Both the position numbers and the translations under genes were made by a program. This document shows positions 44,396-48,469 of a stretch of 64,000 nt of DNA, piece after piece. How positions within the stretch are numbered: position 1 is the stretch's first letter; each line of letters opens with the position of its first letter. The notes under the pieces were generated by a model that was not told the DNA's origin, made no database searches, and worked only from the letters and a program-made list of their open reading frames with translations. The DNA comes from Pedobacter aquae (GTDB lineage Bacteria; Bacteroidota; Bacteroidia; Sphingobacteriales; Sphingobacteriaceae): NCBI RefSeq assembly GCF_008195825.1, contig NZ_CP043329.1, positions 1,860,001 to 1,924,000 on the forward strand. Reading direction: 5' to 3'.

Positions 44396-45151
44396 CTATT
44401 TTAAAAGCATGATTACAGAAGCTAGTAAAGTAATGGCAATGATAAACCAGCGGAAAGTTTTATCGGTCAATTGTTTTACAACGGTTATCCCTACATAAGC
44501 GCCTAATAGTATGGCTGGTATAGTTAAAAGATTTAACACAAAACCATCCCAATGTATGGTATGCCATACAAAAACATGGAAAGGAACTTTAAAAACATTT
44601 ATCACAAAGAAAAACCATGCAGTTGTACCAATAAAAGAGTTTTTATTAAGCTTCATAGATAAAAAATATACTGCCATAACGGTACCAGCTAAATTTCCTA
44701 TCATAGATGTAAAACCTCCGGCTATGCCCATAGAGGCTGCAAAAGCCGGATGTTTAGGAATCTTTTCTCTATTTGTCCGCTCCATCCAAATCATGACCAT
44801 AACACTTAACACAATAATAACAGCCATAAAGGCTCTAAATATGCTATCGTTTATATAAGTGCCCACCCAAGTGCCTAAAATAATACCTACTGCTGCCCAA
44901 GGAAATAATTTCTTTAGATAAGACCACTCGGCATGGCGGTGGTAGTATATAACACCAAAAATATCTGCTATAATAAGCATGGGTAAAATGATTCCACTTG
45001 ATGACTGTCCGCCGAAATAAATAGCCATAACCGGCACAGAAAGCATACTTGTACCATGAATACCTGTTTTAGACATCCCTACCAAAAAGGCTACCAGCAT
45101 AATTACCCAAACTTGGGTTATATCATAAGAAAAGGAAAAAATCTCTATCAA
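44396..45151 (-). CDS. TSUP family (TauE/SafE) membrane permease
   Basis: The 251-residue inner-membrane protein has about eight helices in two repeats. Family motifs are MLVAFLVGMSKTGIHGTSMLSVPV and the second-repeat ASMGIAGGFTSMIGNLAGTVMAVYFL. Members transport sulfite, sulfonates or other organic anions. No sulfur genes adjoin it here, so the substrate is open. Confidence 0.88.
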   Translation of the reverse strand: MIEIFSFSYDITQVWVIMLVAFLVGMSKTGIHGTSMLSVPVMAIYFGGQSSSGIILPMLIIADIFGVIYYHRHAEWSYLKKLFPWAAVGIILGTWVGTYINDSIFRAFMAVIIVLSVMVMIWMERTNREKIPKHPAFAASMGIAGGFTSMIGNLAGTVMAVYFLSMKLNKNSFIGTTAWFFFVINVFKVPFHVFVWHTIHWDGFVLNLLTIPAILLGAYVGITVVKQLTDKTFRWFIIAITLLASVIMLLK

Positions 45152-45209: not shown

Positions 45210-47651
45210 TTAAGGATGTTGAGTTTGTAACGGCAAAGAGAAATAAAAAGTAGAACCATTACCTATTTCACTTTCTATCCAGAAATCGCCATCGTGTCTA
45301 TTGATGATTTCTTTAGAAATAAACAAACCTAAACCCAAGCCTTGAAATATCATTGCCGTTTTATCAACCCTAAAATAACGGTCTGATATATGTAAAATAT
45401 TTGCATCAGAAATTCCTATTCCATAATCCTGCACAGCCACAATTAATTGATTGCCTTGAACTTTAGTGCTTACGTTTACCTCTTTTGCATTTGGAGAATA
45501 TTTTATAGCGTTGGATAAAAAATTATAAATCACCTGTTCTATTCTAAATTTATCTCCGTTAATATTTACCCTTGCAGATTCTAATAAATTAATTTGATGT
45601 GTTGGAGATATATTTTGAATACTGGCAATACTTTCTTCAAGCATTTGATGAAAATCAAACTCTTTGATATGATAGGTAAGTTTTCCTGCATTTATTTTAG
45701 ACACGTCTAGTAAATCGGCAATTAAAATCTCTAGCCTTTTGAGGTTTTTAGATGCTTTTAACACAAATTGATAGGCTTTATCATCCTCATTTAAAGATTT
45801 TTCTATCAGTTGGATAAAAGCTTTTACACTGGTTAAAGGTGTTTTAAGCTCGTGACTGGCTATACTTAAAAATTCGTCTTTTTTAGCCGATAATTCTTTT
45901 TCTGCTTGTTGCACCAATTCTTGTTCGGTAATATCTATAATACTACCAATAAAACCAGCAAAATCACCATCAATATCATAAGGATTGGCTTGCGCATACA
46001 CCCAACGTAAAGCGCCATCGGCTCTTCTAAGCTGAAATTTGTTTTGGTATGATGTTTTGGTAGCTATTGCATTTGCCCAAGCTGCTTTGCGTTCTTCATC
46101 ATCTCCGGGTGGAATTGCAGTTCTAAAGCCTGAACCCAAGCTTTCGGTAATACCTAATCCCGTAAAGGCTGTCCATTGCTTATTTACATAAACAAAATTG
46201 CCCATCGCATCAGATTTCCAAACCATAAAAGGCGTTTCATCTGCCAAGGTTTTAAAATACTCTTCGCTATCTTTTAATTGTTTAAGTTGTTGTTTTTGGT
46301 CGTGGATATCACTATTAGAACCTACCCAAACCAACACTTCATTTTCTTTATTTTTTAAAGGAACACCTTTTATTAAATGCCAACGGTATTCGCCTTTTGC
46401 ATTTTGCAAGCGGGCTTCAATAGTGAAATTTTGGTCGTATTTCATAGCCTGCGACCATAAAATTTGCACTATAGCTTTGTCTTCTGGGTGTACGGTATCA
46501 AACCAACTCCAACCATTTGATGATGATTTCCCTACATAAGCTAACCAAAGCTTATTCACATAAATAATATCTCTTCCGTTGGCTGATGTCATCCAAACTT
46601 TTTCAGGCATGGTATCGGCCATAGAAGCAAAACGGTCTTTACTAATTTCCATTTCCTGGTTTGCTAGAACCAAATCTGTTACATCAAAACCAAATGTGGC
46701 AATACCATCTACCTTACCTTCATAATCATAAACAGGGGTAATTAAATAATCTAGATAAATATTTACCATTTCGCCTGCTTCATTTTTATAACGAGCTTTA
46801 TGGCGCTTACCTTTAGCTGCTATACCGCTACGGTATACTTTCTCACTTATTTCTTTATCTTCTTCACTGACTAAATCGGGGAATAATTCTTCAGGAGTTT
46901 TACCGATATAATCATCTCGATGGGTGAAATCTGTAATGGCCTTATTAACAAAAGTATATCTCAATTCTGGCCCTCTTCTGATAGAAATATAAGCCGGAGC
47001 ATTCATAAAAACCGATTTAAACTCTTCCTGCTGGCGCTTAATAATGGTATTAAACTGTTTGGTTTTTGCATCAACCTCTTTTTTAGCAGAAATATCTATC
47101 ACGTAAGTAATAGCATCTCCTCTTTTATCATTTAGTAACCTTGCAGAACCTAATAAAACCCAAACTTTGCTACCATCTTTATGATAATATTGCTTTTCAA
47201 AAGGCACACACTCGCCTTTTGCTTTTAATTGTTGAAGCGCTTGAAGAGATTCTTCTTTAAACTCTGGCGGTGTTAATTGATCCCAACGGATAAACCCTTG
47301 TTCTAGTTCCTCTCTGGTGTAACCAATAATATCCAAAAAAGCATCATTAGCATCTACAATTAAACCATTGAAATCAGAAATTAAAATTCCTAATACGTTA
47401 GCATCGTAAATACGTCCAAATTTTTGCTCGGCATTTTTGAATTTATACTTTGCATTTTGTATAGTTATACTGATGTTTTTTCTAAGCAATAAGAAAAATA
47501 AAATAGCCGCTGTTAATAAAATAGCGATGATGATTTTAAAGGTAATTAAATCAATATTTTCTATAAAGAATAAAATAACTGTAATAGAAATAATGAAAAG
47601 AAGTGCTATAGAAGCTATTTCAAGGGCATGGTAAACTTTCTTTTCATTCAT
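45210..47651 (-). CDS. Hybrid-free multi-PAS sensor histidine kinase
   Basis: The 813-residue kinase has two N-terminal helices (about 10-56), four PAS domains (about 70-190, 205-325, 335-455 and 460-580; segments such as FGRIYDANVLGILISDFNG and YIGKTPEELFPDLVSEED), a HisKA with phospho-acceptor His in LSIASHELKTPLTSVK, and a HATPase with NFLSNAIKYSPNAK, GIGISD and FQGLGLGLFIS. No receiver domain and no response regulator gene are adjacent. It probably senses an intracellular or redox signal via PAS. Divergent from raiA. Confidence 0.93.
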   Translation of the reverse strand: MNEKKVYHALEIASIALLFIISITVILFFIENIDLITFKIIIAILLTAAILFFLLLRKNISITIQNAKYKFKNAEQKFGRIYDANVLGILISDFNGLIVDANDAFLDIIGYTREELEQGFIRWDQLTPPEFKEESLQALQQLKAKGECVPFEKQYYHKDGSKVWVLLGSARLLNDKRGDAITYVIDISAKKEVDAKTKQFNTIIKRQQEEFKSVFMNAPAYISIRRGPELRYTFVNKAITDFTHRDDYIGKTPEELFPDLVSEEDKEISEKVYRSGIAAKGKRHKARYKNEAGEMVNIYLDYLITPVYDYEGKVDGIATFGFDVTDLVLANQEMEISKDRFASMADTMPEKVWMTSANGRDIIYVNKLWLAYVGKSSSNGWSWFDTVHPEDKAIVQILWSQAMKYDQNFTIEARLQNAKGEYRWHLIKGVPLKNKENEVLVWVGSNSDIHDQKQQLKQLKDSEEYFKTLADETPFMVWKSDAMGNFVYVNKQWTAFTGLGITESLGSGFRTAIPPGDDEERKAAWANAIATKTSYQNKFQLRRADGALRWVYAQANPYDIDGDFAGFIGSIIDITEQELVQQAEKELSAKKDEFLSIASHELKTPLTSVKAFIQLIEKSLNEDDKAYQFVLKASKNLKRLEILIADLLDVSKINAGKLTYHIKEFDFHQMLEESIASIQNISPTHQINLLESARVNINGDKFRIEQVIYNFLSNAIKYSPNAKEVNVSTKVQGNQLIVAVQDYGIGISDANILHISDRYFRVDKTAMIFQGLGLGLFISKEIINRHDGDFWIESEIGNGSTFYFSLPLQTQHP

Positions 47652-47718
47652 AGGTAAAAGAAGTTAAAGCTATCATTAATTAAAATGGGTTTATGTACGT
47701 TTAAAACAGTAAGCGAGT

Positions 47719-47734
47719 TGTGATATATATCACT
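47719..47734. promoter_or_regulatory. CRP/FNR-like palindrome between the kinase and raiA
   Basis: TGTGATATATATCACT contains the perfect 14-base palindrome GTGATATATATCAC and matches the TGTGA-N6-TCACA CRP consensus at nine of ten fixed bases. It lies 68 bases above the kinase start and 82 bases above raiA. Which CRP/FNR-family protein would bind it is unknown. Confidence 0.5.
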
Positions 47735-47815
47735 AAAATTATACCATCTTATTACAAAATATAAGCTATTAAAGGCATACTTTTAGATATATTTAAACAA
47801 CAAAATACATACGTT

Positions 47816-48130
47816 ATGATTATACAGGTTAATACAGACAACAACATCGAAGGAAAAGAAAGATTAAATGAATATGTTAAAGGCATTATAAGCGAAAGCC
47901 TTAACAGATTTAGCGGCCATATTACAAGAGTTGAAGTGCATTTAAGTGATGAAAACGGGCAAAAAGAAGGTGCTGATGATAAGCGTTGTTTATTAGAAGC
48001 AAGAGTTGAAGGTTTAAAACCTGTTGTAGTTACCAACTTTGCAGAAAACTTGCATAAAGCCGTAGACGGAGCAATTAGCAAAATGAAAAGTGCTTTAGAT
48101 AGTGCTTTAGGAAAAATTAAAGAACATTAA
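47816..48130 (+). CDS. raiA: Ribosome hibernation factor, short HPF/RaiA type
   Basis: The 104-residue protein has the S30Ae fold: MIIQVNTDNNIEGKERLNEYVK, ITRVEVHLSDENG and EARVEGLKPVVVTNFAENLHKAVDGAISKMKSAL. It binds the 30S subunit and silences or protects ribosomes in stationary phase or stress. It is shorter at the N-terminus than E. coli RaiA. The CRP-like palindrome upstream suggests energy- or oxygen-dependent control. Confidence 0.85.
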   Translation: MIIQVNTDNNIEGKERLNEYVKGIISESLNRFSGHITRVEVHLSDENGQKEGADDKRCLLEARVEGLKPVVVTNFAENLHKAVDGAISKMKSALDSALGKIKEH

Positions 48131-48144
48131 GAAATCATCTTTTT

Positions 48145-48229
48145 AAAGGTGTTTAAATTTCATCAGCGTAAGGTTATTTTTATTTACCTTTCCGCAAAAT
48201 CTTTAGATTGATGAAATTTAAACACCTTT
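48145..48229. repeat. Long perfect inverted repeat (21-bp arms)
   Basis: The arms at 48145-48165 and 48209-48229 are perfect complements (left arm starts AAAGGTGTTTAAATT). The 43-base loop has a further stem, GCG-AAGGT with ACCTT-CGC. A T run follows the right arm. It lies between raiA and the CDGSH gene, 15 bases from each. It may be a terminator, an attenuator or a small palindromic element. Confidence 0.85.
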
Positions 48230-48244
48230 TTTATTAAAATTATT

Positions 48245-48469
48245 ATGGCAAAAACTAAACTTACGGTAAATAATAACGGTTCTTTAAAAGTAGAAGGCGA
48301 TTTTGAAATTGTTGACAAAGCAGGAAATGTATACCATTTAGGAGGCAGAGAAATAGTTTCTTTATGCAGATGTGGTTTATCTAAAAACAAACCTTTTTGC
48401 GATGGTGCGCACAAAGGCCATTTTGAGCATGATGCTACTGCTTTTGACCTTCCTCCTAGAAATATTTAA
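48245..48469 (+). CDS. CDGSH iron-sulfur domain protein
   Basis: The 74-residue cytoplasmic protein carries the CDGSH motif, CRCGLSKNKPFCDGAH, whose three Cys and one His hold a [2Fe-2S] cluster. Such small proteins take part in electron transfer or redox sensing. It follows raiA with only the long inverted repeat between, so it may be read through from the raiA promoter. Confidence 0.93.
   Translation: MAKTKLTVNNNGSLKVEGDFEIVDKAGNVYHLGGREIVSLCRCGLSKNKPFCDGAHKGHFEHDATAFDLPPRNI

Follow-up and report, generated by a model that had tools for sequence, protein, structure and literature searches.

A predicted FNR-type site in the promoter of a second, divergent ribosome hibernation factor gene of Pedobacter aquae

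The palindrome at 47719-47734 of the window (the whole 64,000-nucleotide stretch of Pedobacter aquae DNA that was analysed), TGTGATATATATCACT, is probably bound by an FNR-type regulator of the family's low-oxygen regulon, which would activate a raiA-like gene. It lies in a 164-bp intergenic gap between the start of a PAS kinase (47651, minus strand) and that of the raiA-like gene (47816, plus strand) and contains, at 47720-47733, the perfect 14-base palindrome GTGATATATATCAC that an earlier note on this DNA had reported there. The same note had proposed control of raiA, the kinase or both by a CRP/FNR-family regulator, and this is supported by comparative evidence, namely a shared motif and its spacing to the -7 box. 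We predict the raiA promoter to be an FNR-type target, working like other FNR-type low-oxygen promoters. The features of the region are as follows (offsets are counted from site start to box start):

45210..47651, minus strand: PAS-domain sensor histidine kinase gene, 813 aa, divergent from raiA (Pfam PAS, HisKA, HATPase_c)
47665..47672, minus strand: kinase-side -7-like box TAGCTTTA, offset 62 (61 in L024; a weaker TAGCTCTA at 60 in L026)
47719..47734, no strand: predicted FNR-type palindromic site TGTGATATATATCACT with core GTGATATATATCAC, from motif match, conservation and uniqueness
47778..47785, plus strand: predicted -7 box of the raiA promoter, TACTTTTA, matching TAnnTTTG at five of six letters, offset 59
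47788..47795, plus strand: alternative -7-like box TATATTTA, five of six letters (TATCTTTA in L026), offset 69
47816..48130, plus strand: second S30AE-domain gene, HPF/RaiA-like, 104 aa (Pfam PF02482, 40.4 bits, cut-off 23.7)
48145..48229, plus strand: long terminator-like stem-loop behind raiA with a T run after it (34-nt arms, 82% complementary)
48245..48469, plus strand: CDGSH iron-sulfur protein gene, the downstream neighbour (Pfam PF09360)

The product of the raiA-like gene is predicted to be a ribosome hibernation factor of the HPF/RaiA-like kind: it matches, at E 1.7e-21, the ribosomal subunit interface protein in the solved structure 7m4z, and scores under the NCBIfam yfiA equivalog cut-off (30.9 vs. 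40.9 bits). The genome holds two S30AE genes, of which the one in the window is the second and more divergent. The standard gene (hpf) is at 316114, after a recombinase gene and before tuf (xerC and tuf both named by eye), the canonical Bacteroidota arrangement xerC-hpf-tuf; it shares the S30AE domain with the raiA-like gene but differs from it in neighbourhood, and has no strong site upstream, the best motif score there being 4.5 bits.

The regulatory motif was learned de novo, by an expectation-maximisation (EM) search for a 16-bp palindrome upstream of D-lactate dehydrogenase-like genes that adjoin a response-regulator/FNR fusion (REC-cNMP-HTH_Crp), at 18 loci of other genera (13 genera). 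Five of the 23 other-genus loci, in which no dehydrogenase start was recognised, were excluded from the learning (L217, L223, L224, L231 and L235). A first run returned the start of the dehydrogenase coding sequence as its top result and the site motif third, after which the regions were truncated at the start codon; the top motif of the search is AgTGAtntanaTCAcT. It carries T or C after TGA, almost never A, and the raiA site shares its palindromic TGA(T/C)N4(A/G)TCA core, matching it at 17.5 bits; the core GTGATATATATCAC is identical in one dehydrogenase promoter of the training set (L232). A scan of the window with this motif placed the palindrome at the top with a runner-up of 9.9 bits, and a score of at least 17.5 bits was reached in three of 200 random 64-kb sequences generated with the dinucleotide transition frequencies of the window.

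These results narrow the proposal of the earlier note, which had compared the site with that of E. coli CRP: the FNR side of the CRP/FNR assignment stood, as the motif is of FNR type, and the CRP side did not, as TTGTGAN6TCACAA is rarer in this genome than its reversed control (5 vs. 12). The classic CRP, HcpR or Rex consensus (TTGTGA N6 TCACAA), through which the site would respond to cAMP, nitrosative stress or NADH, is in fact approached within one mismatch by the 18-mer TTGTGATATATATCACTA, and Rex boxes on record read TTGTGAAW4TTCACAA (excerpt of PMC2883068). We consider this reading very unlikely, however, since the base after TGA in the learned motif is a misfit with Rex, P. glucosidilyticus has TTATGAT at the site, and the consensus was rejected for want of genome-wide over-representation. 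Counts against the control were likewise 4 vs. 11 in G007, 11 vs. 11 in G003 and 3 vs. 8 in G004.

Within its own genome the regulon is informative by the location of its sites and not by their number, because the count equals that of the reversed control: the looser pattern was not over-represented genome-wide here (8 vs. 8) or in G003 (14 vs. 18). The pattern WRTGAYNNNNRTCAYW has eight own-genome matches, seven of them intergenic by ORF coordinates, a figure for the motif matches only. Neighbours of the own-genome sites are a metal P-type ATPase, a cytochrome c/Rrf2 pair, a CoA-transferase, a thioredoxin-like gene, trhO, raiA and a SusC/D-like pair (the last named by eye). A further pattern, KTGATNNNNATCAM, occurred 30 times against 11 in the control, yet only 7 of the 30 were intergenic and this enrichment was discarded as evidence. 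Of the 104 strict sites counted, 67 distinct ones from other genomes were examined in context, and 31 of these were intergenic and 36 coding. Intergenic strict sites in other genera stand before ccoN twice (L327, L329), hemA (L292), Hsp20 (L295), metal ATPases (L278, L329, and L308 by its metal-binding domain), a cytochrome c (L296) and a CRP/FNR gene (L294); the genes behind many other intergenic strict sites have no evident oxygen link. The close relative G004 has no strict motif match against three in the control.

Spacing between site and promoter provided a second line of evidence. The Bacteroidota -7 box (TAnnTTTG) was sought in 26 promoters, 17 of dehydrogenase genes, which are homologous and so not 17 independent cases, and nine others (eight in other genomes, one in this genome), hand-picked because they lie upstream of genes recognisably tied to low oxygen or stress; L229 (8.0 bits) was excluded. 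All 16 perfect -7 boxes fall at an offset of exactly 59 bp, as do boxes of at least five of six letters in 22 of the 26 promoters, the exceptions being L234, L292, L295 and L296, whilst the chance of a box at one given position is ~0.011. At this offset, at least five of six letters are matched in both ccoN promoters and in all four metal-ATPase promoters, and the dehydrogenase of this genome has a perfect (6/6) box there. An unselected check, covering the intergenic strict sites of other genomes read towards each gene start within 350 bp (39 site-and-direction cases), gave the same peak: offset 59 with eight cases against a mean of 0.58 per offset, followed by offset 38 with three, and coding sites gave offset 59 in 1 of 72.

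The raiA promoter keeps this fixed register, with TACTTTTA (five of six letters, the final G absent) at exactly 59 in all four species sharing the locus. Combining the motif with the -7 box spacing, the palindrome is the best hit of the window at 24.0, with the second at 9.5. When site and box were written as a plain pattern with one mismatch allowed, the palindrome alone was matched (zero mismatches), and this version of the spacing test was set aside as too loose, 0.54 matches being expected by chance. Sigma-70-type promoter matches near the site (7 vs. 3.2 expected) were also disregarded, given that the -7 box of Bacteroidota is a different one (excerpts of PMC6847099 and PMC9723704).

Alternatively, the site could act on the divergently transcribed PAS kinase, alone or together with raiA, and the kinase would then be a feed-forward sensor. 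The gap is shared, the kinase side carries TAGCTTTA at 62 in this genome and 61 in L024, the box TAGCTCTA at 60 gives the kinase side of L026 a combined score of 16.6, and a kinase match at E <= 1e-100 is confined to the four genomes in which the site also precedes raiA. Against this, the kinase-side offset changes with the species and no five-of-six box lies near 59 in two of the four (L025, L026), so that kinase control seems rather unlikely. Since the raiA side has the offset 59 in every one of the four species and the kinase side a variable one or none, raiA is the better-supported target of the predicted site.

Conservation was followed through the genus and beyond. Among named organisms, the nearest relatives found were Pedobacter puniceum, whose raiA protein is 99% identical, and P. 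glucosidilyticus (two records, 96%); a raiA-like relative at E <= 0.001 is present in 14 of 18 genus genomes, and the kinase, at E <= 1e-100, in 4 of 18. The block TGATATATATCACTAAAATTATACCAT is identical in the four species with the locus while its flanks diverge, with ATGAT instead of GTGAT at one site edge in P. glucosidilyticus, and the site scores 17.5, 17.5, 15.5 and 15.5 bits in the four. In the other ten genus genomes with a second S30AE gene, the best upstream score was 9.4. We scored 73 raiA-homologue loci from named genomes (76 minus L084, L097 and L099): three reach 14 bits, all of them close relatives, whilst the upstream regions of the other 70 stay under 14 bits, the best being 12.5 (L091). 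Among control upstream regions 4 of 561 reach 14 bits, in a set that includes kinase upstream regions holding the same site.

The expectation of the earlier note that the palindrome should recur upstream of orthologous raiA genes therefore held for the three close orthologues (3/3) and failed for the distant second-S30AE homologues examined, which have no site of similar strength. Because no distant homologue examined has such a site, the raiA site is, on comparison of these sequences, a lineage-specific recruitment limited to a small clade. Low-oxygen genes were also sought by eye around 11 loci, ten of them RaiA-like homologues of other groups, and none stood out.

A chance AT-rich palindrome without function would fit the statistics of the bare 16-mer, which are unexceptional: with up to three mismatches it has two matches, both of them the same site read on the two strands, against 1.2 expected. 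The 15-mer TGTGATATATATCAC, by comparison, is single-copy in the 3.85-Mb genome, its reversed control pattern having no match. The conserved block amid diverging flanks, the best motif match of the window and the exact spacing all argue against a chance origin, which we hold to be highly improbable.

Which protein would bind was approached through the regulators encoded in the family. This genome encodes CRP/FNR regulators, with three HTH_Crp_2 matches above the Pfam cut-off and three weak ones, and the strongest is an intact receiver-cNMP-HTH_Crp fusion, which we call REC-FNR (G000:C1:1371660-1372703). Its gene lies behind a histidine kinase gene and before those of a D-2-hydroxyacid dehydrogenase and a protein read as hemN by eye, and its recognition helix carries ETVSR, like the ETISR of E. 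coli FNR. REC-FNR orthologues (E <= 1e-60) are found in 25 of 41 family genomes, and the strict motif exceeds its reversed control in those 25 (81 vs. 33) but not in the 16 without it (23 vs. 24; Fisher p 0.011, or an estimated p of ~0.018 after removal of the five sites adjoining the regulator).

The same site might be bound by a second protein, an FNR homologue with an N-terminal Cys cluster that would sense oxygen directly. Homologues of this type (E <= 1e-60) occur in 16 of the 41 family genomes, one of them, L294, is itself preceded by the motif, and in the five genomes with the Cys-cluster FNR but no REC-FNR the motif slightly outnumbers its control (11 vs. 7, from few genomes). The figures, which include coding sites, are 37 vs. 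18 in the 14 genomes with only REC-FNR, 44 vs. 15 in the 11 with both and 12 vs. 17 in the 11 with neither. The 37 vs. 18 speaks against the Cys-cluster protein as the binder, and so does the state of its gene here (~G000:C1:3514474-3515124), split between two frames with a stop in this assembly, although the relative G004 has an intact copy. Either protein may bind the motif; we judge the Cys-cluster protein in place of REC-FNR at this site to be a less likely, though not negligible, possibility. REC-FNR is the better guess as binder here, not a certainty, because it is intact and the Cys-cluster gene is frameshifted in this assembly. This frame-broken homologue (L003, G000:C1:3513403-3516621) is near molybdenum-cofactor genes, read by eye.

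Elsewhere in the genome, another CRP/FNR gene (L004, G000:C1:206200-209358) is directly followed by two genes, named by eye, for a TauE-like exporter and a metallo-beta-lactamase/rhodanese protein, and a GTGATAAATGTCAC site lies between these two; this is possibly a sulfide-response unit.

From these computed features (motif, spacing, conservation and regulator presence) we infer the following course of events at the raiA promoter. With the Bacteroidota -7 box placed at -12 to -5 (excerpts of PMC6847099 and PMC9723704), the centre of the site falls at -63.5, where a regulator dimer would sit relative to a transcription start at ~47790, the position implied by the -7 box at 47778-47785. Because raiA has only the upstream site and no box at -41.5, the mode of activation would be class I, from upstream. 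The likeliest protein would be the intact REC-FNR, joining a kinase signal to FNR-type DNA binding. A drop in oxygen (or the kinase signal) would lead to raiA being made and ribosomes entering hibernation. This gives a testable promoter model, consisting of the site, its -7 box, the predicted start and a candidate regulator.

In dehydrogenase promoters a second, half-conserved box is centred at -41.5, e.g. in L225, L226 and L216, where the two boxes stand in tandem at a distance of 22 bp (centres -63.5 and -41.5); this second box is degenerate (TTGATTAGCCTCAT-like) and overlaps the expected -33 region. At G000:C1:1794751 and 3789609, before a cytochrome c gene and trhO, the FNR-type site is single and centred at about -41, the perfect -7 box lying at offsets of 36 and 38; in other genomes there is a minor second peak at offsets of 36-38. 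As a by-product, the motif and its rigid geometry (site start 59 bp before TAnnTTTG, centres -63.5 and -41.5) could be used to read FNR-type regulons in the family.

FNR-type low-oxygen regulons that include cbb3 oxidase and heme genes are known from E. coli FNR, Pseudomonas Anr and FixK, and E. coli FNR prefers the flank TTGAT...ATCAA. The regulon described here resembles them in its TGA(T/C)-N4-(A/G)TCA core, in the ccoN, metal ATPase and hemA genes behind the motif and in the second box at -41.5 of its dehydrogenase promoters, whereas its preferred flank is GTGAT...ATCAC, its promoter has a Bacteroidota -7 box and its main candidate regulator has a receiver domain. For Shigella flexneri, a study of anaerobiosis and FNR tabulates yfiA (RaiA) with a value of 2.70 (excerpt of PMC4229854), although phylum and promoter differ from ours and the excerpt mentions no site upstream of yfiA. 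A parallel in outcome is mycobacterial RafH (Rv0079, MSMEG_3935), a hibernation factor under the hypoxia response regulator DosR (excerpt of PMC10799931). As in mycobacteria, where oxygen control has been measured, a hibernation factor would here be placed under a low-oxygen regulator, but the regulator family and the site differ, and RafH is a long two-domain HPF whilst the Pedobacter protein is a single S30AE domain.

A broader interpretation, which we offer tentatively, is that a two-component FNR may have brought a second, divergent hibernation factor into the microaerobic regulon of a small Pedobacter clade, making hibernation part of the cbb3/low-oxygen programme, as an independent Bacteroidota counterpart of DosR-RafH. 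The prediction would link ribosome hibernation to oxygen supply in Bacteroidota. Among the matches listed in the open-licence literature, as judged by title and start of abstract, none concerned this regulon in Pedobacter, and none of those listed concerned FNR control of a Bacteroidota hibernation factor.

The stem-loop at 48145-48229 separates raiA from the CDGSH gene, ending 15 nt before the start of the latter; it has a folding energy of -32.7 kcal/mol (z -7.5), matches no Rfam family at gathering score and is kept in all four species, and could be either a terminator or a leader. On the other flank of the region, a TauE gene (44396-45151) adjoins the PAS kinase of the window.
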